64,000 bases of DNA from Segatella maculosa DSM 19339 = JCM 15638. Lineage in GTDB: Bacteria > Bacteroidota > Bacteroidia > Bacteroidales > Bacteroidaceae. Both the position numbers and the translations under genes were made by a program. The notes beneath the pieces were generated by a model. That model did not search any database and was not told the origin of the DNA. It saw only the letters and a program-made list of their open reading frames with translations. Each line of letters starts with the position of its first letter. The first letter of the stretch is position 1. The stretch lies in the NCBI RefSeq assembly GCF_000382385.1, contig NZ_KB908319.1, positions 310,001 through 374,000 on the forward strand, given 5' to 3'. This document shows positions 29,019-47,476 of the stretch, piece after piece.

Positions 29019-29363
29019 CTATGCCTTGCGTTTGCAATAACGCTCACACTGGCCGCAGATGTCATACCCCAGCAGTGTACCGAGAATGAAATCCTCTTCA
29101 GGCGTAAGGTTACTGAGTGGCTGTTTCACGAAGTTTCGTATGGCATCCATGCACTCCTTGCGTCCAAAGAACAGGTTGATGCGTTTGTTTCCTACAGGCT
29201 GAATGAGATAATCAATGCCTTGCCGTTCCAATTTGCCCACAGCTAACTGCTGATAACGCTCAGGAAAGGTGTAAAGCACCATATTTCGCACCCCTTTCTT
29301 ATACTGATAGATCTGCTCGGCGAGCACTCTCATGTCGGTAGGCATCACTTCAGTCTGCAGCAT
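29019..29363 (-). CDS. DUF2023 family protein
   Basis: 114 residues. It matches my recollection of the DUF2023 family, small proteins encoded next to flavodoxin in Bacteroidetes (VLYTFPERYQQLAVGKLERQGIDYLIQPVGNKRINLFFGRKEC). The C-terminus has a GYDICGQCERYCKRK cluster with three cysteines that could bind metal. The function is unknown. It lies 15 bases after the flavodoxin stop, in the same transcript. Confidence 0.8.
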   Translation of the reverse strand: MLQTEVMPTDMRVLAEQIYQYKKGVRNMVLYTFPERYQQLAVGKLERQGIDYLIQPVGNKRINLFFGRKECMDAIRNFVKQPLSNLTPEEDFILGTLLGYDICGQCERYCKRKA

Positions 29364-29378
29364 GATGGATATTGGCGT

Positions 29379-29882
29379 TTAAAGTTCTGGTTTTATGGCG
29401 GCAACCCACGCGTCGATGCGTTCATCGGTCTTGTCGTCTTCGTTCACTTCATCAAGAGCGAGTCCCACGAACTGCCCATCAACGACGGCTTCTGAGTCAT
29501 CATAGGTGTAACCATCAGTTGAAACCTGACCAATAACCTTGGCTCCGGCCTCCTTAGCAGCGTTGTAAAGCTCGCCCATACCGCCACAGAACGTGTCACT
29601 GTAGCCTTCTGAGTCGCCACAACCAAAGATTGCGACCGTTTTTCCATTGAGATTGGCGGCCTTAACGGCTTTCACTCCGTCGTACCAGTCGTCTTGCATT
29701 TCGCCAGCGCCCCATGTTGACGTGCCAAGAACAAGGTTTTGATAACCTTCAAGCTGCTCGGCAGAGATGCTACCTGCGTCGAATACGTCGGCATTGTCTA
29801 CGCCGAGTTTTGCTGCAATACGTGAAGCGAGGTCCTGACATGTGCCAGTTGACGAGCCATAGATGATACAAGTCTTATTCAT
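29379..29882 (-). CDS. fldA: Flavodoxin
   Basis: FMN-binding electron carrier of 167 residues, long-chain type. The phosphate loop IIYGSSTGTCQDLA (residues about 5-18) and the FMN-contact loops TSTWGAGEMQDDW and FGCGDSEGYSDTFCGGM are clear. Flavodoxins typically replace ferredoxin when iron is scarce. Its promoter carries the TTTTTAGGTATTG motif shared with the metal-related operons at 30.2 and 38.8 kb, which fits iron control. Confidence 0.95.
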   Translation of the reverse strand: MNKTCIIYGSSTGTCQDLASRIAAKLGVDNADVFDAGSISAEQLEGYQNLVLGTSTWGAGEMQDDWYDGVKAVKAANLNGKTVAIFGCGDSEGYSDTFCGGMGELYNAAKEAGAKVIGQVSTDGYTYDDSEAVVDGQFVGLALDEVNEDDKTDERIDAWVAAIKPEL

Positions 29883-29945: not shown

Positions 29946-29987
29946 CAAAATTAACGGCTTTCCGATGAAGTTGCAATACCTAAAAAG
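29946..29987 (-). promoter_or_regulatory. Flavodoxin promoter with TTTTTAGGTATTG element
   Basis: On the minus strand CTTTTTAGGTATTG (29987-29974), 20 bases, TAATTTTG (29953-29946). The final TATTG takes the place of the -33 TTTG, and TTTTTAGG extends it upstream. The same arrangement is found at two other promoters in the window. Confidence 0.75.
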
Positions 29988-30017
29988 AATGAAAAACGCA
30001 GGTTTGGCATTTCATTA

Positions 30018-30058
30018 CTTTTAGGTATTGATGGAAATAACTATTTCAACTACCTTTG
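30018..30058 (+). promoter_or_regulatory. Promoter of the porin-imelysin-cytochrome operon with the shared element
   Basis: CTTTTAGGTATTG (30018-30030), 20 bases, TACCTTTG (30051-30058). It diverges from the flavodoxin promoter; the two elements face away from each other with 30 bases between them. Confidence 0.75.
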
Positions 30059-30214: not shown

Positions 30215-31522
30215 ATGAGAAGTTGTAAGTTTAGATTAGTGACAAGCATTCTTTTAGTGGGGATAGCAGTGCAGTCACATGCGCAAGTAAACGCTTCAGA
30301 CTCGGTGATGAGTCATGCGAAAGGTAACCGGTTTAGCGTGGGAGGTTATGGAGAAGCCACCTTTTCACGCATGTACTACAGTGACAACGGCAATCGTTAT
30401 ACGACGCCAGGTTCGTACAAGAAAGACCCAAGTCATGGGCGTTTCGACATTCCGCACGCTGTTATCTATCTCGGATACGACTTCGGCAAAGGCTGGTCCA
30501 TGGGTTCTGAGATCGAATTTGAGCATGGTGGCACCGGAGCTTCCATAGAATATGAAGCCGATGAGGCTATAGAATTCGAGCACGAAACGGAGAAAGGCGG
30601 CGAAGTTGAGTTGGAACAGTTCTGGATTCAGAAGACTTTCGGACGTGCTTTGAACATTAAGGCCGGCCATATCGTTGTTCCTTTAGGACTAACCAATGCA
30701 CATCACGAACCATTGAACTTCTTTACGGTGTATCGGCCTGAAGGTGAGAACACCATTCTGCCCTGTACGTGGCATCAGACGGGTGTTTCTGTCTGGGGAC
30801 GCACGGGAGATTTCCGTTATGAAGCACAGATGGTGGCCGGTTTGGACGCCTATCATTTCAGCCGAAGCAATTGGATTCAAGGTGGAAGTTCCACGCCGTT
30901 CGAGTTTGAAGTGGCCAACAAATACGGCTTCCTGCTGCGTGTTGACAACTATACCGTTCCCGGATTGCGCATCGGAGTCAGCGGTTATGCGGGCCAATCC
31001 ATGCATAACAACATACCACATGACAGTGAACGAGGCGAGAAAAAGAAGATCAAGGGCAACGTTTACGTGGGAAGTGTGGACTTTACCTACAACCGTTACA
31101 ACTGGATTGTTAGAGGAAACGCCGATTATGGCTATGTCAGCGATGCAAACAAGATATCCCAACTGACTTATCCGAATGTCCAATACGTCAAACCTTACCA
31201 ATCCGGCAATGGAAAAAACTTCGGAAGCCATGCCATGGCCATGATGCTTGAGGCCGGTTATGACGTCTTTTCGCAAATCAAAAAGCTTCGCTCAGACAAC
31301 CAAAAGCTTTATGTCTTCGGGCATATTGAGCACTATGACTCCTATGTTCACGGGACAACGAAGCAATGGACCAATAAAACTATCTTCGCAGGTGGCATTA
31401 ATTATCACCCAGTTCCACAGATAGCGATTAAAGCAGAGTATCATTATCGCAAGCTGAAAAGCGGATATAATGATGAACCTTCAGTCAATATAGGAATCGC
31501 TTACGAGGGTTTCTTCTTATAA
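30215..31522 (+). CDS. Outer-membrane porin-like protein
   Basis: 435 residues with a signal peptide (VTSILLVGIAVQSHAQ). The beta-barrel begins FSVGGYGEATFSRMYY and ends VNIGIAYEGFFL with aromatic terminal residues. An acidic stretch (EYEADEAIEFEHETEKGGEVELEQ region, about 110-133) is probably an extracellular or constriction loop and could attract cations. Similar porins precede imelysin genes in Bacteroidetes. The stop TAA at 31520-31522 lies in the same frame as the imelysin that follows, with no intervening stop. Confidence 0.85.
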   Translation: MRSCKFRLVTSILLVGIAVQSHAQVNASDSVMSHAKGNRFSVGGYGEATFSRMYYSDNGNRYTTPGSYKKDPSHGRFDIPHAVIYLGYDFGKGWSMGSEIEFEHGGTGASIEYEADEAIEFEHETEKGGEVELEQFWIQKTFGRALNIKAGHIVVPLGLTNAHHEPLNFFTVYRPEGENTILPCTWHQTGVSVWGRTGDFRYEAQMVAGLDAYHFSRSNWIQGGSSTPFEFEVANKYGFLLRVDNYTVPGLRIGVSGYAGQSMHNNIPHDSERGEKKKIKGNVYVGSVDFTYNRYNWIVRGNADYGYVSDANKISQLTYPNVQYVKPYQSGNGKNFGSHAMAMMLEAGYDVFSQIKKLRSDNQKLYVFGHIEHYDSYVHGTTKQWTNKTIFAGGINYHPVPQIAIKAEYHYRKLKSGYNDEPSVNIGIAYEGFFL

Positions 31523-31576: not shown

Positions 31577-32761
31577 ATGGGCAAGGTGGTTGCCAACTAT
31601 TTGGAGGCAGTCATCAAGCCAACCTATCAGGATTTGGCCAACAAGGCCGACAAACTCTACGAGGCTTGCCAGAACCTTTACGCCAAACGTAAGGCTAAAA
31701 CACTGACACAGGCCGACATTGACGCAGCTTGTGAGGCGTTCAAAGATGCAAGAAGGGATTGGGAACAAAGCGAAGCATTCCTTTACGGAGCTGCTTCCGA
31801 CAATGAAATCGACCCGCATATCGACTCATGGCCGCTGGATCACGACCAATTGGTAAAGGCCTTGAACAACAAAGACGTGATAGCTGGCATCAACGGCAAC
31901 AATCCTGTCGAGTATGTTTACAATGCACACAAGGATTTCGACAGTGTTATAGGCTTCCATGGACTGGAGTTCGTGCTGTTCCGCAATGGGGCAAACCGCA
32001 AGCTCAGCGATTTCATGTCAGAAAATGAGAAGGAAAATGGTCTGACCAGCGTGAAGACGGTGAACGAAGCTGCTTTTGCTGCAGCCGTTTCCGGTGACCT
32101 TCGCAACATGACTTACCTGCTGGAATATGGCTGGTTGGGCTCAGGTGCAGCCGTATCTCACCAGAATCAGCTTGCTAAATCCATGTGGGTCATCAAAGCA
32201 CTGCGTAATAAAGGACTCTCTCCAAAGGGTATTCCCTATCGTGATTACGTGAAGAGCGCGGGAACAGACAAGGGAATGTATCCAACATGGCACGAAACAT
32301 TGCAGAATATCTTTGTCGGTGGCTGCTCAAACATCTGTGAAGAGGTTGCAACACAGAAGTTGGGACAGGCTTATCGCACTGCAACGGGAACCGGAACAAA
32401 GGATGATGCAGCCAATTATATCGAGTCTCCTTACAGTAAACGGTCTTTCCAAGATTATCAAGACAATATTTATTCCATCAAGAATTCGCTCTATGGCGTC
32501 CGTGGCACTGAGAACATCTCTACTCCGGCAGCCAATTCAATCATGACTTACTTGAAGAACAAGGGCTATACCAAGTATAACGACTTGAACAATGCCCTCA
32601 ACGAGGCCATCAATGCATTGGAAAAGGCAAAGAAGAGCGGCGTGGCTTTCATCGACAAACCCGGTGCTCCTCAGGTGAAGACCTGCATCGACAAGGTTGA
32701 TGCGCTCAACGAGGCACTGAACGAAGCAGGAAAGTGGATCAACATGCAGGCAGATGAATAA
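31577..32761 (+). CDS. Imelysin-family protein lacking a signal peptide
   Basis: Imelysin (peptidase M75/EfeO-like) domain; secreted members act in iron uptake. The signature GFHGLEF fits GxHxxE, and DNEIDPHIDSWPLD, GGCSNICEEVA and a four-helix-repeat pattern are present. The first ATG (31577, MGKVVANYLEAVIKP) is already inside the mature domain. The frame upstream is DNLKKVESDANSNAEKTA and then the porin stop, so the usual signal peptide and lipobox are absent and there is no room for them. 394 residues from that ATG. The protein may stay in the cytoplasm, be made as a read-through fusion, or be a damaged gene. Confidence 0.82.
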   Translation: MGKVVANYLEAVIKPTYQDLANKADKLYEACQNLYAKRKAKTLTQADIDAACEAFKDARRDWEQSEAFLYGAASDNEIDPHIDSWPLDHDQLVKALNNKDVIAGINGNNPVEYVYNAHKDFDSVIGFHGLEFVLFRNGANRKLSDFMSENEKENGLTSVKTVNEAAFAAAVSGDLRNMTYLLEYGWLGSGAAVSHQNQLAKSMWVIKALRNKGLSPKGIPYRDYVKSAGTDKGMYPTWHETLQNIFVGGCSNICEEVATQKLGQAYRTATGTGTKDDAANYIESPYSKRSFQDYQDNIYSIKNSLYGVRGTENISTPAANSIMTYLKNKGYTKYNDLNNALNEAINALEKAKKSGVAFIDKPGAPQVKTCIDKVDALNEALNEAGKWINMQADE

Positions 32762-32871: not shown

Positions 32872-34566
32872 ATGAAAATCAACAGCTATCGCGTGCCATT
32901 GGCCTCTTTGGCTTTGTTATGCCTGTTCTCTGCTTGCTCGGATGACGACAGTGACCCCGTTGTACCCGAGAAACAAGAACCCGAAGCCAAGTACATCGGG
33001 CAGGCCGTGGGCAATTTTACCGCAGAGGAATGGTATCCCGGCGGCGCACTCGGCACGACACAGAACACCTCTTCCAACTGTTATGAAGACAATACGCCTG
33101 CAGTTGACGACCAAGGATTGAGCGATTTGTTCAACCAAGGCGACCTTATGGCAAGCGCAAAATACACACTGAACACCGAACCTTACAAAGGTTGGGGGCC
33201 AATTGCCTCGCGTCGGTCATGCGAATACTGCCATTCGGGCGGTTATGCCCATGGACACAGCCGCAGCGACATGGACCCCGTGAAGGGAAACGGCTATATC
33301 GTTTCGGTTTATTACCCAGATGCCCCCGGAAGCAACAACGGAACGCCCGTCGATCAGCTGACAACGTTCACCATGCTTCAGGCCGTAGAGCCGTTCCTTC
33401 CGCCACTCGACCCCACAAAAATCAAGATTACGTGGCATGATGTGACTGCAATGCCGAGCGGACTTCCCATGAAATTCCCCGATGGTGAGGCTTTCCGGCT
33501 GCGTTATCCATCGGTAGAGATACCCCAATCGGCCTTTAATACCAATCCAAAGCCCAGCAACTATGCCGTAAGACTCATCGCTTCGTGCAATTTCCAAGGG
33601 CTTGGGCTGATCGATGCCATCTCAAATGAAGACTTGGAAGCGCAATATAAGGCCGAAGGAAAGTTCGTTCAGCTGAACCCGGAGCTGTGGGATAACGCGG
33701 CAAAGAGGCTGAAAGCCGACGCATACGCCAGCGATTACTTTGGAAAGAAGTTCATCAAGCGCTTCAATTACGACCTGCTCGACGGCTGTCTTGAGAACGA
33801 TGTCGCACTGTGGGACGAACTTAACGTGCTTCGTTCAGACATCAAGCACATCTGTTCCACTGAAGCATGGGCCAAAGCCATGTCAGAAAACAGCGCAGTC
33901 ATCGACTATATACAACGCAACGGCAAGAGTCCTTTCTCCGATGTTCACCCTTATTACAACGACGGAACACGCGAAGGCATCAAGAAAGCAGTGGCTTATC
34001 TGCTCTCGCCGGGCGACCATGTGAACCTATACAACAACCCTTACTTCAATTTCAAGCCCGAAATGACCGATGATGCCTATCATGCTTTCATGGTATGGCA
34101 TAGAGGTATCGCCGTTCCGCGCGCCAGAAACCTGAACGACAAGGCTGTGCAACGTGGCAAAGAGCTCTTTACCGGTGCCCTTGGTTGCGTGAATTGTCAC
34201 CGTGCCTCATGGACCACGGGGGCCGACAATCATGGTTCTTCTCGCATTCTGGGCAGCAAACAACTGCCTAAGTACGCCAAACAGAAGATTTATCCCTACT
34301 CGGATTTCATTCAACACAAGCTTGATATGAAGAACGACATACACGGTTCGTGGTGTCGCACCACGCCGTTGTGGGGCAGAGGCCTGTCGCTCATCAACTC
34401 AGGAGCCGAAGACCGACTGCACGATGCGCGTGCCCGCAACGAAGTCGAGGCCATCATGTGGCATGCCTACAGCAAGAACAGCCAGGCTTACCGGGCTGCC
34501 GAGAAGTTCTACAAGCTGCCGAAGAAAGACAGGGACGCTGTCGTGAAGTTCATTCGCTCGATTTAA
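32872..34566 (+). CDS. Di-heme oxidoreductase (DHOR / thiol oxidoreductase-like) lipoprotein
   Basis: 564 residues. Lipoprotein signal MKINSYRVPLASLALLCLFSAC (Cys about 22). Two c-type heme motifs are visible: CEYCH at residue 117 and CVNCH at residue 439, with a Met/His-rich region between. The closing block RTTPLWGRGL..HDARARNEVEAIMWH is characteristic of the DHOR family (related to cytochrome c peroxidases), which regularly accompanies imelysin. It needs periplasmic heme attachment, which the next gene (CcsBA) supplies. It could oxidise or reduce a metal substrate at the outer membrane; that is inference. Confidence 0.88.
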   Translation: MKINSYRVPLASLALLCLFSACSDDDSDPVVPEKQEPEAKYIGQAVGNFTAEEWYPGGALGTTQNTSSNCYEDNTPAVDDQGLSDLFNQGDLMASAKYTLNTEPYKGWGPIASRRSCEYCHSGGYAHGHSRSDMDPVKGNGYIVSVYYPDAPGSNNGTPVDQLTTFTMLQAVEPFLPPLDPTKIKITWHDVTAMPSGLPMKFPDGEAFRLRYPSVEIPQSAFNTNPKPSNYAVRLIASCNFQGLGLIDAISNEDLEAQYKAEGKFVQLNPELWDNAAKRLKADAYASDYFGKKFIKRFNYDLLDGCLENDVALWDELNVLRSDIKHICSTEAWAKAMSENSAVIDYIQRNGKSPFSDVHPYYNDGTREGIKKAVAYLLSPGDHVNLYNNPYFNFKPEMTDDAYHAFMVWHRGIAVPRARNLNDKAVQRGKELFTGALGCVNCHRASWTTGADNHGSSRILGSKQLPKYAKQKIYPYSDFIQHKLDMKNDIHGSWCRTTPLWGRGLSLINSGAEDRLHDARARNEVEAIMWHAYSKNSQAYRAAEKFYKLPKKDRDAVVKFIRSI

Positions 34567-34830: not shown

Positions 34831-37008
34831 ATGCAACTAAAAAAGACATTACAAGCCGTCTATGTCCTCATTATCGGCGTGATGGCCATGGGAACAGTCG
34901 TAGGAAAGTATGCCGGGCAAGCCGATGCGGCCGACCATGTGTTCGGTTCGTGGTGGTTTTGCCTGCTTTGGGCAGTGGGATTGGCCGTCGCCGTGGCCTA
35001 CTTCGTCCGCCAAAAAGTGCGCCGTCCCGTCCTTGTCGTCCTGCACCTGTCGTTCGCCGTCATTCTCTTGGGCGCCTTTCTCACCCATATCACGGCCCGA
35101 CGCGGCATGATTCACCTCCGTCAGGGGCAATGGGTCGCCAGCTATATCACCAAGGACGGGGCCGAAAAGCCGTTGCCTTTCACCATCAGGTTAGACAAAT
35201 TCAGCATCAGCTACCATGCCGGCAACGCCGCCGCCATGGACTATACGTCGGAGGTGACGCTGAACGACGACGGAAACGAGACACATTGCCGCATTTCCAT
35301 GAACAAAATCTACGACAACTACGGCATACGTCTCTACCAAAGCAGCTTCGATGACGATCTGAAAGGCTCTTACTTGTCGGTCAATGCCGACCCTTTCGGC
35401 ATTCCGGTCACCTATTTGGGCTACGCTTTGCTCTTTATGGGCTTGATAGGTATGCTGATTGACCGGCAAGGAACGTTCCGCCGGCTGCTGAAGAGCGACT
35501 TGATGGCGCGCCCAACCGTGGCATTATTGCTGCTGATGTCTGCCTTTTCGTCGCTGAAAGCACAGCCCGCGTTGCCCAAGGCCACGGCCGAGGCGTTCGG
35601 AAAAGCCTTTATCGTCTACAACGGACGCATCTGTCCCGTGGAAACCTTTGCCATTGACTTCACGAAAAAGCTCTATGGAAAGGCCCATTACAAGGATTTC
35701 ACGCCGTGCCAAGTGCTCACAGGCTTCATGTTTTGGCGTAATGAGTGGCTGCAGGAGCCCGTTCTCCGACTGAAAGGCAGCGAACTGCGTACCCACTTTC
35801 AGCTCGATGAATATGTGGCGCCCATGCGATTGTTCGGCCGACAAGGCTATATCCTCGGCCCATATCTCCAAAATGCGCAGGAAAACCAAGACGCTTTTTC
35901 ACGCCAAGTGCTTGACATCGACGACAAGATGGCGTTGCTGATGGACCTTGCACAGGGCAGAACGCTCAAGATGTTCCCTTATGCGCAGCGAAACGGCCGT
36001 GTAGATTGGTTCTCCCCAGCCGACCGGCTGCCCCGTTCCATGCCGAAAGCGCAGCAACAATACGTCCGTTCCATCATTGGCTTGGCCGGAGAACTGGCCG
36101 TTCAGGGCAAGATTGACATGCTGAACGACCTCTTTCATCGGCTACGGAAGTATCAATACCGGTTCGGAGACAGCACCGTTCCGTCGCAAACCAAGGTGTG
36201 GGCGGAGAAGGTCTACAACCATGTGCCCTTTGCCACGCTGCTTTTCATCTTCAATCTCACGCTCGGTCTTGTTTCCATCGGCTTCCTCACGCGCCGGAAA
36301 GGCTACGCCTGCTTTGCTTGGCTCATGGCATTGTCGTGGAGTGTCCTTACGTTCACCTTGGCACTTCGCTGGATTATCAGCGGAACGGTCCCCATTGGCA
36401 ACGGATATGAGACGATGCTCTTCCTTGCATGGCTCGTCATGCTGCTGTCGATGCCCATCATGCGACGCATACGCCTGATGACTACCTTCGGATTGCTGAT
36501 GAGTGGCTTCATGCTTTTGGTGAGTCACATCGCCCAAATGGACCCCGCTATCACGCCACGCATGCCGGTTTTGAACAGTCCGTTGCTAAGTTTGCACGTC
36601 AGCATCATCATGATTGCCTACGCACTCTTCTCACTTACGTTCGTCAGTGCCGTTGCCTATTTTCTAACGGCACGCAGTCAGCGGCCGCAGGTGGCCAAGG
36701 TCAACGCCCAACTCACCGGTCTTTCGCAACTGTTCCTCTATCCTGCCGTCACAACCTTGGGGCTTGGCATCTTCATCGGCGCCGTTTGGGCCAACATCAG
36801 TTGGGGAACTTACTGGTCGTGGGACCCGAAAGAGACATGGGCCCTCATCACTTTCATGGTCTATGCCGTGCCGCTTCACGCGCAAAGTCTGCCTGCTTTG
36901 CGTCGCCCGGTGGGCTATCATCTCTACACACTCTTGGCATTTCTCTCCATCATCATGACCTATTTCGGCGTGAACTACGTGCTCGGCGGCATGCACAGTT
37001 ATGCATAA
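34831..37008 (+). CDS. Cytochrome c biogenesis protein, ResB-CcsA fusion
   Basis: System II heme exporter/lyase, 725 residues, that attaches heme to CxxCH proteins in the periplasm. An N-terminal ResB-like part (membrane helices near 8-25, 40-60, 68-86, then a periplasmic domain and another helix about 190-210) is fused to a CcsA part with six or more helices in the last 260 residues. The heme-handling motif WGTYWSWDPKETWAL (about 655-669) and conserved His in HVSIIMIAYAL are present. The di-heme oxidoreductase just upstream is the obvious client. Last gene of the operon. Confidence 0.92.
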   Translation: MQLKKTLQAVYVLIIGVMAMGTVVGKYAGQADAADHVFGSWWFCLLWAVGLAVAVAYFVRQKVRRPVLVVLHLSFAVILLGAFLTHITARRGMIHLRQGQWVASYITKDGAEKPLPFTIRLDKFSISYHAGNAAAMDYTSEVTLNDDGNETHCRISMNKIYDNYGIRLYQSSFDDDLKGSYLSVNADPFGIPVTYLGYALLFMGLIGMLIDRQGTFRRLLKSDLMARPTVALLLLMSAFSSLKAQPALPKATAEAFGKAFIVYNGRICPVETFAIDFTKKLYGKAHYKDFTPCQVLTGFMFWRNEWLQEPVLRLKGSELRTHFQLDEYVAPMRLFGRQGYILGPYLQNAQENQDAFSRQVLDIDDKMALLMDLAQGRTLKMFPYAQRNGRVDWFSPADRLPRSMPKAQQQYVRSIIGLAGELAVQGKIDMLNDLFHRLRKYQYRFGDSTVPSQTKVWAEKVYNHVPFATLLFIFNLTLGLVSIGFLTRRKGYACFAWLMALSWSVLTFTLALRWIISGTVPIGNGYETMLFLAWLVMLLSMPIMRRIRLMTTFGLLMSGFMLLVSHIAQMDPAITPRMPVLNSPLLSLHVSIIMIAYALFSLTFVSAVAYFLTARSQRPQVAKVNAQLTGLSQLFLYPAVTTLGLGIFIGAVWANISWGTYWSWDPKETWALITFMVYAVPLHAQSLPALRRPVGYHLYTLLAFLSIIMTYFGVNYVLGGMHSYA

Positions 37009-38582: not shown

Positions 38583-38683
38583 GCATGTAGGGACGCACGG
38601 CTCGTGCGTCCGCTCCAATAATCATGTATTTGCGTTTCCATTCACCTTGAACGGACGCACGGTTCGTGCGTCCCTACATGCCT
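38583..38683. repeat. REP-like palindrome pair
   Basis: Two inverted copies of the GGACGCACGG..CGTGCGTCC palindrome with a 40-base spacer related to the other loci. It lies just upstream of the HMA-operon promoter. Confidence 0.87.
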
Positions 38684-38742
38684 CCCCTGCCCTATTGCGT
38701 GGCAATAGGACTGAGATGGATACTTAAATACAATGTCATTAT

Positions 38743-38805
38743 TATTAGGTATGAGAAAGACTAATTTTTAGGTATTGCATATTGCAAGGAAGGAACGTAT
38801 CTTTG
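38743..38805 (+). promoter_or_regulatory. Promoter of the HMA-TonB operon with the shared element
   Basis: TTTTTAGGTATTG (38765-38777), 20 bases, TATCTTTG (38798-38805). A second, weaker copy TATTAGGTATG lies 23 bases further upstream (38745-38755), so the site may be bound by two protein units in tandem. Confidence 0.75.
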
Positions 38806-38840: not shown

Positions 38841-39245
38841 ATGAAAAAAATGGTGATGATGCTGTTTGCCTGCTTGTTCACCACAAGCATTTGGGCAGAC
38901 AATGTGAGATTTGAAATAAGCAACATGCACTGTCAGAACTGTGCAAATCGCGTGGAAAAGGCCCTGAAAGCCAATAAGGCTGTCGGCGAAGTGAAGGTGG
39001 ATCTTGCCTGCAAGGCTGTCAATGTGAGCTATGATGCGGCAAAAACCAATGTCGAGGCACTGCAAAAGGCACTGACCGAGGCCAAGTTCGAGGCCAAAGT
39101 GGCTGCACCTTGCGACCAAAAGGGCGATTGCAAGCACAAAGGAAAGGCGCCGGAGCATCGCTGCAGTACGAAAACGAAGCAACAAAAAGCCGGCGAACAC
39201 AAGTGTGGCGGCGAAGGTTGCGGACATGATAAGGAAACCAAGTAA
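38841..39245 (+). CDS. Secreted heavy-metal-associated (HMA) domain protein with Cys/His tail
   Basis: 134 residues. Signal peptide MKKMVMMLFACLFTTSIWA, then a ferredoxin-like HMA fold (about 22-88) with the metal site MHCQNC (MxCxxC). After it comes a Lys-rich tail of about 45 residues containing CDQKGDCKH, HRC, EHKC and GEGCGH: about five Cys and five His that could bind extra metal. It probably acts as a periplasmic or surface metal chaperone feeding the TonB receptor encoded downstream. Which metal is carried is not evident; the shared promoter motif suggests iron or another scarce transition metal. Confidence 0.88.
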   Translation: MKKMVMMLFACLFTTSIWADNVRFEISNMHCQNCANRVEKALKANKAVGEVKVDLACKAVNVSYDAAKTNVEALQKALTEAKFEAKVAAPCDQKGDCKHKGKAPEHRCSTKTKQQKAGEHKCGGEGCGHDKETK

Positions 39246-39267
39246 ACAATCTATAATTTATTACTGT

Positions 39268-40548
39268 ATGAATCGATTAATAAAAATTGCATGGGTAGTG
39301 CTTCTCTGCCCGTTGTTCCTCGTTTCTTGCTCTTCAGACGACGAGGGTGAGAAGAAAATTGACCTGACATTCAACGCCGTTCCGAGGGTTTCGGGGGCAT
39401 TGGATATCGCAAGTTTGGCGGGAACACCCGTCAAGTTCACCGAGGTGCGCAGCCAAAACACGAGCCAGTTCCCGCTCGATGCCACCGGAAAGGCACTTGT
39501 TTCGCTGCCGATGGGCGTCTATGACATTGCCATAGACAAGGAGATTACCAACGCACAAGGCGAAAAAGTGATGATTTCCTTACGCATGGAGAATGTCAAT
39601 GTGAACGCCGCAGGGCAGAAAATCGAGGGCTATGTGAACTCACTTCCAGCCAGTGCGCTTGGCAAGGACTTTATTTTCAGCGAGGTTTTCTTCAATGGTG
39701 AGACCAATTCAAGGCGTATGATGCACCCCGATCAGTACATTGTGCTGTTCAATCCGACTGAGAATGTGCTCTATGCCGACGGTGTGAGCATCGGTGTTAC
39801 CATGCATGCGGCTTTTCAAGACCCGCAATTGTGGTACAATAAATACTATCCTACCCGCGTACCCATAGGAGGTTTCATCACAATTCCAGGCAATGGGAAA
39901 GACCATCCCGTGCAACCGGGCGAGAAACTCGTGATAGCTTTCACCGCAATCAACCATCATGAGATTGTAAACGGAGGCATTGCCTATGAGAATTCCGTTG
40001 ATTTAAGCGGCGCAGACTTTGAGATTTACTACGGTCCTAAGAGCAAAGACGTGGACAATCCAGCTGTTCCAAACGTGCTACTCACAGAGAATGGCGACAC
40101 TTATGGGTTCTTCTTACACCCCAGAGGCTATTGGTCTCCGGTGATGTTCCGCTTGGAAAACGGCCAACAGTCAACCGTTGATGCCTTCGTCAAGAGCCAT
40201 ACTACGACATCGAAGACCCATGTAAAGGCAACAAAGGACACGCCCGAAGGCGACATCGACATTCATATCCTCGCCATTGAGACGGATAAAATCATCGATG
40301 GCATTCAAACCAGCGACGAAAATCAGAAGGTAAAGACCCGCGTAGTGCCTGAAGTTGTAGACCGCGGCCAGTTCCTTGTCAGCGGATGTCACCAGCAAGA
40401 GCTTTGTATCCGCAAGGAAATAAAAGTGGGCAACAAGATATTCTACAAAGATACCAATAATAGTGTTGAGGATATGCAGAACGCGAAAGCAAGAAAAGCA
40501 GCCGGACACTTCCAAAATGCCTTCCCTATTGGCTGGCGAAACAAGTAA
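39268..40548 (+). CDS. DUF4876 family surface lipoprotein
   Basis: 426 residues from ATG 39268; signal MNRLIKIAWVVLLCPLFLVSC with lipobox LVSC then SSDDEGE, a negative stretch typical of surface-exposed Bacteroidetes lipoproteins. An N-terminal beta-sandwich-like part (about 25-150) precedes the DUF4876 region (FIFSEVFFNGETN, DQYIVLFNPTENVLYADGVSI, about 155-400). It lies between an HMA protein and a TonB receptor, so capture of a metal or metal complex at the cell surface is plausible. The family assignment is from recollection of DUF4876-TonB-DUF6850 neighbourhoods. Confidence 0.78.
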   Translation: MNRLIKIAWVVLLCPLFLVSCSSDDEGEKKIDLTFNAVPRVSGALDIASLAGTPVKFTEVRSQNTSQFPLDATGKALVSLPMGVYDIAIDKEITNAQGEKVMISLRMENVNVNAAGQKIEGYVNSLPASALGKDFIFSEVFFNGETNSRRMMHPDQYIVLFNPTENVLYADGVSIGVTMHAAFQDPQLWYNKYYPTRVPIGGFITIPGNGKDHPVQPGEKLVIAFTAINHHEIVNGGIAYENSVDLSGADFEIYYGPKSKDVDNPAVPNVLLTENGDTYGFFLHPRGYWSPVMFRLENGQQSTVDAFVKSHTTTSKTHVKATKDTPEGDIDIHILAIETDKIIDGIQTSDENQKVKTRVVPEVVDRGQFLVSGCHQQELCIRKEIKVGNKIFYKDTNNSVEDMQNAKARKAAGHFQNAFPIGWRNK

Positions 40549-40587: not shown

Positions 40588-43353
40588 TTGAAAAATAGAA
40601 CACTACTTTTTACACTTTCCCTGCTTTGCATGGTGATTTCGGCCGTAGGACAGACGTGCACGGTGAAGGGAAAGATTGTAACTGACCACGATGGCGAGGC
40701 AGCAAGCTTCGCCATCGTCAGTATCCGGAACCAAGAACTGCGCACCTTGTCTGACGTCAACGGCTACTTTGAACTCCGTAATGTACCGATTGGCAAACAT
40801 ACCATCGAGGTGGAGTGTCTGGGCTACGTCAAATTGCAGCATCAGTTCATGGCCATGAAAGACGTCAGCCTGTCGCTTCGGTTGCAAAGCAACAGTTTCA
40901 CCCTACCGGAGTTTGAGATAATGGCAAGGAAAAGCCGCAAGGGAAAAGTCGTTGTCGACGAGGCTGCATTGGAATATATCCAACCTACCTCGCTGGCCGA
41001 CGTGATGTTGCTACTTCCGGGCAGTGTTTATAAAGAAAACAACCTGACACAATTCGCGCAAATCAGTAGCCGTCAGGTAGGAACTGACGCCAACACGTCG
41101 CTCGGTGTGGGTATCGTTACCGACGGAGCGCCAGTGACAAACGACGGTATTCGCTCTCAATTGGTGGGCATTACCGAGGGAAGCGAACACTATGATGGCG
41201 AAGTTCGCAGTCGAACGGGCATCAACCAAGGGGCCGATATGCGCATGATTTCCACCGATCATATCCAAAGTGTGGAGTTCACGCGTGGCATCTCGTCTTC
41301 ACGTTACGGCAATCTGTCGAGCGGAATGATAAGTATTTCGTCGAAACATGGCGTGACTCCGCTGCGTGTACGCCTGAAAAGCGATCTAAAGAACACGCTC
41401 TTGTATGCAGGGAAAGGCTGGCGACTCGGCGAAAAGGCTGGTTCGCTCCACGCAGGCATTGACTTTCTGCACTCAATTGATGACATTCGCGAGGAAATGG
41501 ACAAGTTCTCGCGTCTGACGGGACAGCTTTATTATAATAATAAGGTGAAGCTTGGCAGCTATACCCTCGACCTTGACGGTCGATTAAGCCAGACCCTCAC
41601 TGCCAATAAGATGAAGAAAGACGAGCTGACCTATGAATATAACGAGTCTTACAAGGCCGATTACAGTCGCACGGCCCTGATGATGAAGGGCCTGTTGACG
41701 CTCGGTAAGCCGTGGTTGAGCCAATTGGAGTTGATCATGTCAGCCGATTACACGCGCGATAGGATAACTCGTCATCGCATGGTCCTATCAGGTTCGGGTC
41801 CATTGAACATGCCTTTGGCTCACGAAGCGGGCGAACATGAGGGCATATATCTGCCCCGTAAGTACTATAGTGACTTCTATATCGACAATCAACCGCTGAA
41901 CTTCTATGCCCAACTCAATGCCGTTTCACGCATTCAGCTGCTGAAGAACACGATGCTCAACCTGCAATACGGTGCAGAATACAGCAATGTGAAGAACCAC
42001 GGAGCTGGAGCTGTCATCGAAGATGAGTCACGTCCGCCCTTTCCTTACGACAATTCGTACATGAGACCAAGGCCTAATTGGGCCATACCTGCCTTAGGTA
42101 ACGGCGCAATCTACGCACAGGCAGACTTCATTTACGATGATAACAACAGCAATGTCCTGCAACTCTCCGTCGGGGGCCGTGCTTCTATGTTGCTAAATCT
42201 GCCCCGTGACTATTATTTGCATGGCTATTTGCTGAAAGACCCACGCTTGAACCTCTCTTATATCATGGGAAAAGCGTTCAAAAATACGTTCCGTGTGGGC
42301 TATGGTGAGGAAAGTAAGACGCCGACGCTTGACTATCTCTATCCCGAAAAGCTGTATAAAGACTTCTATATGCTCAATGCTTACACGATAGACCCGCGCT
42401 ATCGCCACCTCATCACATACACCAACATCTACGATGTAGCTAACCGCGACCTGCATGTCAACAAGAATCGCAAGATGGAAGCAGGCTGGGACATCGACTA
42501 TCGCGGCTTCAGTCTATCGCTTACTGCCTTTTATGAGCAGTCGGATGCAGGCTTTGAGTACTTCACGACCTACCATCCTTTGACCTATGACCTCTACTCT
42601 CAGTTGAAACCCGGGGCGAACATCGAGGGCCGAACGCCCCAAAAGAGCGACTACATACAAGAGAAATACAGCATCTTCACCACGTCGCAACAGGTCAAGA
42701 ACTCCCAAAAAGTCACCAAACGAGGGATAGAATACCGCCTGATATTGCCGAAACTAAAACCATTGCTCACGACAATAGAAATCAACGGCGCCTATTATCA
42801 GACTGATTACGCCTCTTCTCTGCCGCTCTACTACTATCCTGACGTGAAAATCGGCGGAAAAGAGTATCCATATGTGTGCATTTACGACAATGGAGCACGA
42901 AACCAATACCGCCGTTTCAACTCCAACGTGTGGCTTAACACGCATATTCCGAAGTTCAAACTGTTCCTGACGAACTTCTTTCAGGTCGTTTGGCTCAATA
43001 CTTCGCAGTATAAGGACAACCACGACTATATCCCAACGGCGTATATCGACATGCAAGGGAACCGACGGCCTGTAGATGAGCGGATACGTTCACTTATCGA
43101 GGCCGACGACGGCACGTTCCGCTACTTCCGTCGCACGATTCTTCCCGTGAAATATGCCTGCAACAAGATGCCGATATCCCTGCTTTGGAACATCAAGGCC
43201 ACCAAAGAGTTCGCGAAAGGCACCAAGTTGTCGTTCTTTGTCAATGGTTTGCTCGACGTCAGTCCTAAATATCTCTCAGGAAGCAAGATAACCAAGCGCG
43301 AATGGCACGACCCTTATTTCGGACTTGAACTGTATTTTAACTTCAATCTATGA
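40588..43353 (+). CDS. TonB-dependent receptor
   Basis: 921 residues starting at TTG 40588, chosen because it alone yields the full signal peptide (MKNRTLLFTLSLLCMVISAVGQ); the first ATG at 40630 would cut it. A carboxypeptidase-regulatory-like domain (about 23-105, KGKIVTDHDGEAASFAIVSI) precedes the plug (about 120-240, with TPLSLADV-like LADVMLLLPGS and GISSSRYGNLSSGMISI) and a barrel ending LELYFNFNL. No SusD gene accompanies it, which fits a metal or siderophore/heme receptor better than a glycan importer. The ligand is unknown. Confidence 0.9.
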   Translation: MKNRTLLFTLSLLCMVISAVGQTCTVKGKIVTDHDGEAASFAIVSIRNQELRTLSDVNGYFELRNVPIGKHTIEVECLGYVKLQHQFMAMKDVSLSLRLQSNSFTLPEFEIMARKSRKGKVVVDEAALEYIQPTSLADVMLLLPGSVYKENNLTQFAQISSRQVGTDANTSLGVGIVTDGAPVTNDGIRSQLVGITEGSEHYDGEVRSRTGINQGADMRMISTDHIQSVEFTRGISSSRYGNLSSGMISISSKHGVTPLRVRLKSDLKNTLLYAGKGWRLGEKAGSLHAGIDFLHSIDDIREEMDKFSRLTGQLYYNNKVKLGSYTLDLDGRLSQTLTANKMKKDELTYEYNESYKADYSRTALMMKGLLTLGKPWLSQLELIMSADYTRDRITRHRMVLSGSGPLNMPLAHEAGEHEGIYLPRKYYSDFYIDNQPLNFYAQLNAVSRIQLLKNTMLNLQYGAEYSNVKNHGAGAVIEDESRPPFPYDNSYMRPRPNWAIPALGNGAIYAQADFIYDDNNSNVLQLSVGGRASMLLNLPRDYYLHGYLLKDPRLNLSYIMGKAFKNTFRVGYGEESKTPTLDYLYPEKLYKDFYMLNAYTIDPRYRHLITYTNIYDVANRDLHVNKNRKMEAGWDIDYRGFSLSLTAFYEQSDAGFEYFTTYHPLTYDLYSQLKPGANIEGRTPQKSDYIQEKYSIFTTSQQVKNSQKVTKRGIEYRLILPKLKPLLTTIEINGAYYQTDYASSLPLYYYPDVKIGGKEYPYVCIYDNGARNQYRRFNSNVWLNTHIPKFKLFLTNFFQVVWLNTSQYKDNHDYIPTAYIDMQGNRRPVDERIRSLIEADDGTFRYFRRTILPVKYACNKMPISLLWNIKATKEFAKGTKLSFFVNGLLDVSPKYLSGSKITKREWHDPYFGLELYFNFNL

Positions 43354-45017
43354 CACGTAACCTACGAATATACCTGCTCTCGTCTGTCTTGATGGCCTGC
43401 AATCAGCTCTATTCTCAAGCACTTCTCGACCGTGCGAACCGCAGTTTGTCGCCAACCGAGACGCGTTTCCATGCCAACAACGCCGACTTCGCGCTGGCCG
43501 GAGCCAAGACTGCCTATGCAAACCCCGCATTCACGCGATGGAACAACGTAAATGACACCGCCACGCACAAGCGTTCGGCCATCGTTTACGCAGGATTGGC
43601 CGGTGCCGACAGCAAGGGAGACTTCATGCCCTATGAAGGCAGCGGCTCAACCGACTATCGTGCCGGGGCTTATGGCGAATATGACACGCCTAAAAGCGGC
43701 ACTTTGTCGGGTTGTATCCAGTATGCACAAGGCAAACATCGCCACATCGGGTGGAGTGCCATGCGGCTTCCGGAGTTTTATTTGCCTTATATCTCGACCG
43801 ATTCCTGCGGTGGAGACTTCAAATTCGACACTTATTTCGCCGAAGGAAACTATGCGTTCACACTCAACCAATGGACTTTGGGCATGAAAGCCTCCTTTTA
43901 CGGCGAGCAAGCTTACCGTCTGACCGACCCACGTGCGCTGAACAACACCACATGGTTGCGCTTCAATGCCGGCGTGGCCCGCCATTTGGGACACCATCTG
44001 CTGTTGCTTGATGCCGGATATGGCCGCAACAAGCAGCACGTGCGGCTGCGTTACTGGCGTCCGGGCCAGCAAGACAGGTTCTTCGTTTGCTATGGTTTCG
44101 GGCTATACGACACGCGTCAGAGTACGGTTTCATTCGGAAAGTCACGTATGTACTACGTCGATGAGTTCAATGCACGGCTACAATACCTGTCAACACAGGC
44201 CGGACCGTTGCACATACATGCGGCGCTGGGCTACGCTTTCGCCCATATGAAGACCGAAGAGAGCGATATCTATAACCTATATGAGTCGCGTAGCCACCGA
44301 TTGTCGCCACTCTTGCGCCTGACATACGCCTTTCGGGGCGACTGGCAATTGGAATTGGCTGCCACGGGCGACATCATGCTGCGCAAAGGCTATGAAAACA
44401 TCATCGAGGAATACCTGATTGACAGGGAAAATAACATTTATGACTTCCGAACCATCGACACTCGGCAGCACTATAGCTGCAATACGGGCCGGTTTTCGGG
44501 CGCATTGAAGGTGTCAAAACGGCTTACCCGGTTTGAAATCAGCCTGCAGGGAGGAGCCACGACGGAGCTTTTTGAGGAGAAATACAAGGCAAACAACCAC
44601 AAAATCAGGGTGCGCACGCTGACGCCCCACGTCAAATTGGGCATCGACCGACAGGGCATTCGGGACGACATTGGGCTAAGTCTGCTGTTTGCCCGGCAGC
44701 ATGTGGCCGACCATGTCTATGATGTGACGCTTCAGCGCGGGGGGATTGAGCGCCTCGACTTCCAACATGCCTTTGCTCCTTACGCTTTTCGGTGTGCCGA
44801 ACTCCATGAGATTGCGGTGGACATCACGTGGCTACACCGCCTGAAGAAAATGGATATAGGTTTGAATGCCAAGCTTTATCTGGCCGACGGTGACCGAAAA
44901 AGCGATGTTTCCTACAGTGGAACCATCGGCTTTCCCGCTACGGCTCCGATGCTAAAGCCCATGCCCGACAAGCATCAAGAGCGTTGGGCGGCCCTGACGG
45001 CATTCGTTTCGTTTTGA
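43350..45017 (+). CDS. DUF6850-type outer-membrane beta-barrel protein
   Basis: 555 residues, starting inside the receptor's stop (ATGA overlap), so translationally coupled. Signal peptide MTRNLRIYLLSSVLMACNQLYSQ. The rest is a barrel of many short strands (GAYGEYDTPKSGTLSGCIQY, FDTYFAEGNYAFTLNQWTLGM, LHIHAALGYAFAH) ending WAALTAFVSF. I recall it as DUF6850, found after DUF4876 and TonB receptor genes. Function unknown; last gene of the operon. Confidence 0.75.
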   Translation: MTRNLRIYLLSSVLMACNQLYSQALLDRANRSLSPTETRFHANNADFALAGAKTAYANPAFTRWNNVNDTATHKRSAIVYAGLAGADSKGDFMPYEGSGSTDYRAGAYGEYDTPKSGTLSGCIQYAQGKHRHIGWSAMRLPEFYLPYISTDSCGGDFKFDTYFAEGNYAFTLNQWTLGMKASFYGEQAYRLTDPRALNNTTWLRFNAGVARHLGHHLLLLDAGYGRNKQHVRLRYWRPGQQDRFFVCYGFGLYDTRQSTVSFGKSRMYYVDEFNARLQYLSTQAGPLHIHAALGYAFAHMKTEESDIYNLYESRSHRLSPLLRLTYAFRGDWQLELAATGDIMLRKGYENIIEEYLIDRENNIYDFRTIDTRQHYSCNTGRFSGALKVSKRLTRFEISLQGGATTELFEEKYKANNHKIRVRTLTPHVKLGIDRQGIRDDIGLSLLFARQHVADHVYDVTLQRGGIERLDFQHAFAPYAFRCAELHEIAVDITWLHRLKKMDIGLNAKLYLADGDRKSDVSYSGTIGFPATAPMLKPMPDKHQERWAALTAFVSF

Positions 45018-46804: not shown

Positions 46805-47476
46805 ATGATAAACGACCAAGTGATGCAGGCACTGCAGAAGTGTCCCCTATTTGCCGGCATGAACGAGCTCAGCATAGAATTGGCTTTGGGCAATGTTGCC
46901 TATCAAATCGTTGGCTATGACAAGCGAGATGTCTATGCTTTGGCGGGTATGCCCTGCCGGTTTGCCGACATTATCATCAGCGGAAGCCTCATCTGCCGCA
47001 TGGTTTCGCTCAGCGGAAAGCAAGTAGAAGTGAGCCGGTTGCGCCCGGGTAACCTCGTTGCCCCAGCCTTTATCTTTGCCAAAGACACTACGCTCCCCGT
47101 CAGTGTGGAGACAGATTCGAAGGTAAATATCCTGCGCATGACCCCCGAAACGCTGAAGACTCTGATCGATAAAGACGAAGATATCCGTATGAACTTTATC
47201 CATACGCTGTCGAACATTGATGTTTTCCTGACGCAAAAGATGAAGGTTTTGAGCCTGTTCACGGTCAGGGAGAAGGTTGCCTACCTGCTTTTAGAACGCG
47301 CAGGTGAGCAGAATTCCAACACCATTCACCTTGAAAGAAGTCGCCAAGAGATAGCCGACTCGTTCGGAATTCAGAAGTTTTCGCTCCTTAGAGTGCTCAG
47401 CGACTTTGAGAAAGAGGGCATTATAAGGGTCGATGGCAAGACGATTGAAATCCTCGACCGCAACAAATTGAAATGA
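46805..47476 (+). CDS. Crp/Fnr-family transcription regulator
   Basis: 223 residues. An N-terminal cyclic-nucleotide-binding-like beta-roll (about 15-125, DIIISGSLICRMVSLSGKQVEVSRL) is joined by a long dimer helix (IDVFLTQKMKVLSL) to a winged helix-turn-helix (about 170-215, SRQEIADSFGIQKFSLLRVLSDFEKEGII). No Fnr-type iron-sulfur cysteine set; residues for cAMP are not conserved enough to claim binding. Its stop overlaps the start of the RluA gene. Targets cannot be inferred from position. Confidence 0.88.
   Translation: MINDQVMQALQKCPLFAGMNELSIELALGNVAYQIVGYDKRDVYALAGMPCRFADIIISGSLICRMVSLSGKQVEVSRLRPGNLVAPAFIFAKDTTLPVSVETDSKVNILRMTPETLKTLIDKDEDIRMNFIHTLSNIDVFLTQKMKVLSLFTVREKVAYLLLERAGEQNSNTIHLERSRQEIADSFGIQKFSLLRVLSDFEKEGIIRVDGKTIEILDRNKLK

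Follow-up and report, generated by a model that had tools for sequence, protein, structure and literature searches.

Among described regulators, the closest to the system considered here are CdhR (PG1237) of Porphyromonas gingivalis with PG1236, BT_0519-0520 and the fused PIN17_RS10465 of Prevotella intermedia, which join a LuxR-type protein to a hemerythrin partner or fusion and which passages of PMC10434189 and PMC10101095 describe as induced by iron depletion and linked to heme and iron uptake. According to the passages of PMC10434189, iron depletion induced flavodoxin/DUF2023 159-164-fold in P. intermedia and, in B. thetaiotaomicron, 326- and 598-fold. For DUF4876-TonB loci the rise was 112-128-fold (BT3631-33) and up to 214-fold (PG1019-22), for hemerythrin-CdhR loci 16-20-fold (BT0519-20) and ~7-fold (PG1236-37); TetR/ABC loci were also strongly iron-induced. 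The split and fused forms of the regulator, which is fused in P. intermedia, are regarded there as equivalent and the mechanism is termed unclear; these passages mention neither imelysin nor enolase, and none of the terms 'promoter', 'binding motif' and 'regulon' occurs in the main text of that paper. In passages of other papers, CdhR is called an activator of hmuYR (PMC3832793; for hmu also PMC10101095); PMC2671838 describes the pg1237 product as repressing hmu, and PMC4082711 reports repression of mfa1 and luxS by CdhR. Regulator and stimulon are thus already known. The operator described below, its flipped use and the regulon assignment seem new relative to the literature searched, which excludes Wu 2009 and Chawla 2010, the primary reports on CdhR, and describes no operator for this regulator; the published passages on CdhR give none, whereas here we propose an asymmetric operator, a flipped copy and a wide target list.

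The window, that is, the whole stretch of 64,000 nucleotides that was analysed, carries this putative operator at three promoters (Table 1). At the HMA-DUF4876-TonB promoter, TTTTTAGGTATTG (38765-38777) and the -7 element TATCTTTG (38798-38805) are separated by exactly 20 bases, as the initial annotation had claimed. Its description of this site as the third copy of one element also holds: the composite TTAGGTATTG-N20-TANNTTTG, searched at up to three mismatches, has three matches in the window, all exact, whereas shuffled windows gave a mean of 0.27 and 0 of 100 shuffles reached three. With as many as two mismatches allowed, the 12-mer by itself was found 5 times against 5.02 expected in the window and was rejected as evidence for this reason; it is therefore the -7 box at fixed spacing that matters. 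When the window was scored with a weight matrix derived from 60 sites in other genomes, the three elements and an upstream copy (38732-38753, score 18.0) took the first four ranks, the next site scoring 8.9; in Markov sequence, scores of at least 18.0 arise at ~2e-7 per position and strand (a single site in 40 x 64 kb, with both strands counted). The weaker upstream copy that had been proposed is thus real, a full-length second element that ranks fourth in the window by a matrix from other genomes, and its AGG core lies 23 bases from the proximal one as claimed (38747 and 38770). Its start had been misplaced, however: TATTAGGTATG begins at 38743, which is 22 and not 20 bases before 38765. We take the ATTG end of the proximal element to be a -33 box, on the Bacteroidota -33 consensus. 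An Rfam scan of the window found two tRNAs and an L13 leader, with no match at the HMA-DUF4876-TonB promoter.

The three composites precede a flavodoxin-DUF2023 operon, an imelysin/di-haem oxidoreductase/ResB operon and the HMA-DUF4876-TonB-DUF6850 operon. Two neighbouring features were recorded: an inverted repeat on GTAGGGACGCACG / CGTGCGTCCCTAC (38585-38682), ~60 bases 5' of the distal element, which resembles a small mobile or REP-type repeat, and a Crp-family regulator gene (46805-47476) ~1.8 kb after the DUF4876-TonB-DUF6850 operon.

Table 1. Elements, promoter boxes and genes of the three operons in the window.
Feature	Position	Strand	Remarks
Composite match	29946-29983	-	pattern search of window
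Composite match	30021-30058	+	pattern search of window
Composite match	38768-38805	+	pattern search of window
DUF2023 protein	29019..29363	-	Pfam PF09633
Flavodoxin	29379..29882	-	Pfam PF00258
Flavodoxin-DUF2023 operon element TTTCATTCTTTTTAGGTATTG	29974..29994	-	-7 box TAATTTTG 29946-29953
Imelysin operon element TTTCATTACTTTTAGGTATTG	30010..30030	+	-7 box TACCTTTG 30051-30058
Imelysin operon, first gene	30215..31522	+	no Pfam match
Imelysin (Peptidase_M75)	31577..32761	+	Pfam PF09375
Di-haem oxidoreductase (DHOR)	32872..34566	+	Pfam PF06537
ResB / cytochrome c assembly protein	34831..37008	+	Pfam PF01578, PF05140
Distal second element TGTCATTATTATTAGGTATG	38734..38753	+	core 23 bp upstream; own weak arm; without -7 box
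Promoter-proximal element, HMA-DUF4876-TonB operon	38757..38777	+	weak arm AAGACTAA, spacer, strong arm TTAGGTATTG (38768-38777)
ATTG end of element, presumed -33 box	38774..38777	+	sequence
-7 box TATCTTTG	38798..38805	+	20 bases 3' of element
HMA-domain protein, first gene of operon	38841..39245	+	Pfam PF00403
DUF4876 protein	39205..40548	+	Pfam PF16215; ORF limits, true start probably further in
TonB-dependent receptor	40588..43353	+	Pfam PF07715, PF13715
DUF6850 protein	43350..45017	+	Pfam PF21012

Beyond the window, the genome of origin (3.31 Mb, 60 contigs) contains nine exact composites, seven with one mismatch and two with two mismatches. At up to three mismatches, 54 composites were found against 30 for a reversed-pattern control; most three-mismatch sites were therefore treated as noise. 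Downstream of the sites lie TonB receptor-like genes (L009, L011, L012, L017 and L020 by sequence; L012 was matched by tblastn with the window receptor as well), together with CbiX/ferrochelatase-like, calycin-like lipoprotein, DUF4929, LCM methyltransferase, TetR and hemerythrin-LuxR regulator genes. In the genus, the composite at up to one mismatch was present in 55 of 60 genomes and in all 33 of those at least 90% complete, with 227 sites in total (summed by hand) against 7 reversed-control sites. For 60 exact sites from other genus genomes, taken from among those listed, a first gene could be assigned at 58, and 55 of these 58 were scanned, the doubtful ORFs L126, L129 and L143 being left aside; the first genes encoded a TonB plug domain in 12 cases, flavodoxin in 11, DUF2023 in 3, CbiX, PepSY and enolase in 2 each, and FeoB in 1. 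Six further ones resemble the first gene of the imelysin operon, and beyond the first 25 Pfam rows the imelysin-operon, HMA, TetR, methyltransferase and regulator assignments rest on such resemblance to proteins of the genome of origin. FeoAB is preceded by the element in one genus genome (L178, G019). The element-bearing genes are thus of one physiological kind, and several of them match the iron-starvation stimulon in the passages of PMC10434189, which reports expression of the shared flavodoxin-DUF2023, DUF4876-TonB, TetR/ABC and hemerythrin-CdhR loci; the element would connect genes induced together by iron loss with one regulator.

The same association appeared when loci were picked by gene and not by site. 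Flavodoxin orthologs were selected by protein (30 loci of 48 matches); in the 900 bases preceding the gene, 29 of the 30 carried the element with no more than two mismatches, 27 of them exactly, as against 0 of 30 for a reversed control. In addition, 27 of the 30 were exact for a -7 box TANNTTTG and a TTG-like -33 box at N20 spacing, in line with the Bacteroidota consensus of a housekeeping-type promoter. DUF4876 genes fetched by protein gave 16 matches and 13 evaluable TonB- or HMA-linked operons, after SusC/D-like operons in G003 and G026 and a locus at a contig edge (G042) had been set aside; the G026 operon has a two-mismatch site and the G003 stretch ends close upstream. The element stood before 12 of these 13 orthologous operons (9 exact, 2 with one mismatch, 1 with two), including L199, where it lies 5' of a 690-residue ORF and HMA and is assigned to the operon on that arrangement; L204, a TonB/HMA-DUF4876 operon, is the one without it. 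These gene-picked sets bear out the earlier proposal of a regulon over chance similarity, and we regard it as very likely that a regulon with a defined operator exists.

Alignment of the 60 promoters revealed more than the strong arm. Columns -13 to -2 before TTAGGTATTG, which had played no part in site choice, are conserved as AAAA(T/C)C(A/C)(T/C)NATT, giving an operator consensus of AATC(A/C)TNATTT followed by TTAGGTATTG. The element is an asymmetric inverted repeat of ~20 bp, more than the direct repeat first described: its strong arm TAGGTATTG is fused to the -33 box and a weak AATCATTA-like arm lies 11 bp upstream. In some promoters a mirror arm AATACC completes the repeat to AATACCTA-N4-TAGGTATT, and a search of 198 genomes of the order gave 151 copies of the full dyad AATACC-N8-GGTATTG, the control giving 26. 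Such a repeat, TACCTAN-NN-NTAGGTA, is NarL-like and has the form of the NarL 7-2-7 sites. Counted from the two consensus boxes, the centre of the dyad falls near -42, the usual place of a class II activator. A perfect dyad was also seen in G259 (L074), ahead of an apparent operon of a RIC-like gene, an HTH gene and FeoAB.

The 23-bp direct repeat itself found no support as the working architecture. At the columns of the AGG 23 bases upstream nothing is conserved in the 60 promoters, the closest ortholog of the HMA-DUF4876-TonB operon (L203) lacks the second copy, and tandems elsewhere are spaced by 26-27 bp in 7 of 60 promoters and 60-61 bp in 4 of 60, or by 25-27 bp in 10 of the 30 flavodoxin promoters. 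A direct repeat as general architecture was rejected on these grounds, and the idea of two protein units on one DNA face is not supported by the recurring spacings of 25-27 or 60-61 bp, which do not keep one face. The distal copy is real and useful, its spacing not fixed and such tandems local.

A candidate for the binding protein is encoded 40 kb before the first base of the window, where a site (L014) precedes the gene of a 318-residue hemerythrin and GerE protein (G000:C1:268574-269527). A Fur-family gene (L348, C1:271450-271734) lies ~2 kb from it. The GerE helix-turn-helix was recognised by PF00196 (64.9 bits, cut-off 23.5), and the domain is shared with NarL/LiaR/VraR-type regulators by Pfam, sequence and fold. 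TIGR03652, the NCBIfam family of RIC iron-sulfur repair proteins, scored 52.6 bits, far under its cut-off of 204.7, so that the regulator would be classed as RIC-like and not as a RIC repair protein. Its AlphaFold model (mean pLDDT 81.8, pTM 0.65) superimposed on ScdA/RIC with Z 15.1 over 152 residues (rmsd 3.4) and on the LuxR-type HTHs of LiaR (Z 10.9) and NarL (Z 10.1-10.2). Because designed helical bundles reach Z 12.6 against the model, the bundle match alone is modest; a sequence-based PDB profile search matched the HTH half only, and Foldseek gave a best E-value of 0.0042, with none at or below 0.001.

Among 34 homologs, the would-be di-iron ligands H88, H131, E135, H209 and E213 are invariant and H164 is conserved in at least 90%. 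This set corresponds to the YtfE di-iron ligand pattern, and together with the fold match it suggests the four-helix bundle with conserved His/Glu ligands of RIC/YtfE/ScdA. The likeness to that family thus comprises fold, a weak family match and six His/Glu ligands, whereas the fusion to a DNA-binding domain sets the regulator apart; in comparison with NarL-type proteins, a RIC-type di-iron domain would take the place of the phosphorylated receiver. The Cys pair of the ScdA N-terminal domain is absent from the corresponding place, although C45 is invariant. In the genus the regulator was found in 53 of 60 genomes and in 32 of the 33 good ones. Elsewhere in the order, in many families, it is split into adjoining RIC-like and HTH genes, and so the CdhR-like pair of split hemerythrin and LuxR-type proteins recurs in Bacteroidales outside the genus; the fusion is apparently a relative of P. 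gingivalis CdhR, likened to it by published description. By eye, split HTH partners (e.g. L068:888-1496, minus strand) begin with a receiver-like region without the usual acidic pair, which suggests that this region may be unphosphorylated.

Distribution of sites and homologs across the order points to the same protein. Outside the genome of origin, 7 of 134 sites among the matches listed lie within 2 kb of a RIC-LuxR homolog, with 0.16 expected; they belong to G259, G374, G389, G533 and G536. Counting genomes individually, with kinship ignored and G440 (E 2.5e-40) placed in the strong group, the 37 genomes with a strong homolog averaged 1.76 sites (control 0.24), the 88 with a weak one 1.02 (control 0.53; 90 sites vs 47) and the 72 in which no homolog was detected 0.42 (control 0.21). 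Against the assignment count the raised controls in the weak group and two single genomes: G368 encodes a good fused homolog but lacks any site with one mismatch or fewer, and G034, 93% complete, has a site and no regulator match. It is nevertheless likely that the element is bound by the RIC-LuxR protein.

At the regulator's own promoter the element is turned round. Of 79 named Prevotellaceae regulator loci with enough upstream DNA, 68 had a core promoter before the gene and 11 none that was recognisable; the core promoter with the best arm-match sum was chosen per locus, which favours arms somewhat. AATACCTA (at least 6 of 8 positions) stood at the mirrored place in 61 of the 68 promoters, mostly with ATGATKATTG over the -33 box. 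A good forward strong arm was present in 13 of the 68, with both arms in 8 and neither in 2. AATACCTA-N3-ATGATGATT is the in-register reverse complement of AATCATTAT-TTT-TAGGTATT, the element of the target promoters; one asymmetric site thus serves in both directions. The forward element at up to two mismatches occurred in only 6 of 33 genus regulator promoters, which we count against our main reading.

That reading, which we hold to be probable as a whole, is an iron-starvation operator served by a class II activator of the RIC-LuxR type with di-iron sensing. The inverted repeat centred near -42 would be bound by a dimeric LuxR/NarL-type regulator, which is most likely the RIC/hemerythrin di-iron and GerE HTH fusion described above. 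Since the strong arm of the repeat continues into the -33 box of an otherwise ordinary TANNTTTG promoter, this protein most likely acts as a class II activator in contact with RNA polymerase at -33. Under iron scarcity the di-iron site would lose its metal, and the protein would turn on its own gene as well as the operons for flavodoxin, imelysin/cytochrome, HMA-DUF4876-TonB and further uptake systems. At the HMA-DUF4876-TonB promoter the distal copy (38734-38753) could take a second dimer for stronger occupancy; at the regulator's own promoter the turned element puts the weak arm over the -33 box and probably sets a different control strength. Activation as the mode of action appears likely, and for sensing of iron through the di-iron site of the regulator the chances seem evenly balanced.

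That the same protein at the same site represses, with relief on loss of iron, is unlikely. Overlap of the site with the -33 box would suit a repressor, as would the naming of the pg1237 product as hmu repressor in passages of PMC2671838 and the repression of mfa1 by CdhR in those of PMC4082711; against this, the centre near -42, as placed from the boxes, is the usual position of an activator. Passages of PMC3832793 and PMC10101095 call CdhR an hmu activator, and in those of PMC10434189 the regulator gene rises together with the targets in low iron. It is quite unlikely that another LuxR/NarL-type response regulator binds the element in place of the RIC-LuxR fusion. The genome of origin has three GerE matches (G000), and in distant class members exact or one-mismatch elements lie ~40-530 bases after unrelated GerE genes (G183:C9, G065:C47, G329:C179, G254:C103, G190:C37, G078:C49), so that the arm may be a wider LuxR-type operator. 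The flipped element at its own promoter nevertheless singles out the RIC-LuxR gene, sites adjoin that gene in other families, and passages of PMC10434189 report a gene of this type as induced by low iron.

Binding of a degenerate Fur operator by Fur or a Fur-like protein, with iron-loaded Fur blocking the -33 box, strikes us as improbable. Fur regulons control similar genes (flavodoxin, TonB receptors, FeoAB), the genome of origin has two Fur-family genes, one of them the neighbour of the RIC-LuxR gene, and the weak arm ATCATTATT resembles half of the E. coli Fur box consensus. Yet the motif is another one: the conserved core is AGGTATT and not a Fur arm, the 60 promoters hold no conserved second Fur arm 5' of the weak arm, and the full dyad has NarL-like geometry. 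Of 14 control genomes from many phyla, 13 have Fur-family matches, whereas within the order the number of elements tracks the RIC-LuxR gene; the mode would also differ, being probably activation in low iron and not repression in high iron. P. gingivalis does have PgFur, according to passages of PMC10101095. Least credible of all, and very improbable, is an extended core promoter, a stronger -33 region with no regulator of its own. The strong arm does end in the -33 box and, at every site counted, stands 20 bases 5' of the -7 box; an upstream arm conserved in columns unused for selection, flipped and duplicated elements, and downstream genes of one physiological kind all speak against it.

With the RIC-LuxR activator as the preferred reading, operator, target list and a single candidate protein are directly testable. 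If it is true, a di-iron activator would govern the response to iron starvation in abundant bacteria of the gut and mouth, and uptake systems important during inflammation could be predicted from the operator. A tentative extension, to which we give slightly less than an even chance, is that iron starvation in Bacteroidales is run mainly by the RIC/NarL-HTH activator and not by Fur repression, with the direction of the operator setting the output. On this view the RIC-type di-iron domain, fused to or paired with the NarL-type HTH, would on losing iron bind the one asymmetric operator at the -33 box and turn on all of the low-iron programme. Class-wide, a match was found in 126 of 296 genomes, most of which outside the order look by eye like background.

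Some individual sites stood apart. The exact element L005 in the genome of origin (C1:265495-265532, minus strand) has no ORF of at least 50 residues starting within 500 bases; it may be a flipped site that serves the opposite strand, or the promoter of a small RNA. A few one-mismatch sites there (enolase, dihydroorotate dehydrogenase electron transfer) may be chance. Enolase, an odd member of an iron regulon, is preceded by the element, exact or with one mismatch, in three genomes (L019 in contig C10 of the genome of origin, L139 in G024 and L147 in G016). In contig C20 of the genome of origin, a perfect palindrome AATACTTATTAATAAGTATT (L022) lies ahead of a TetR regulator.
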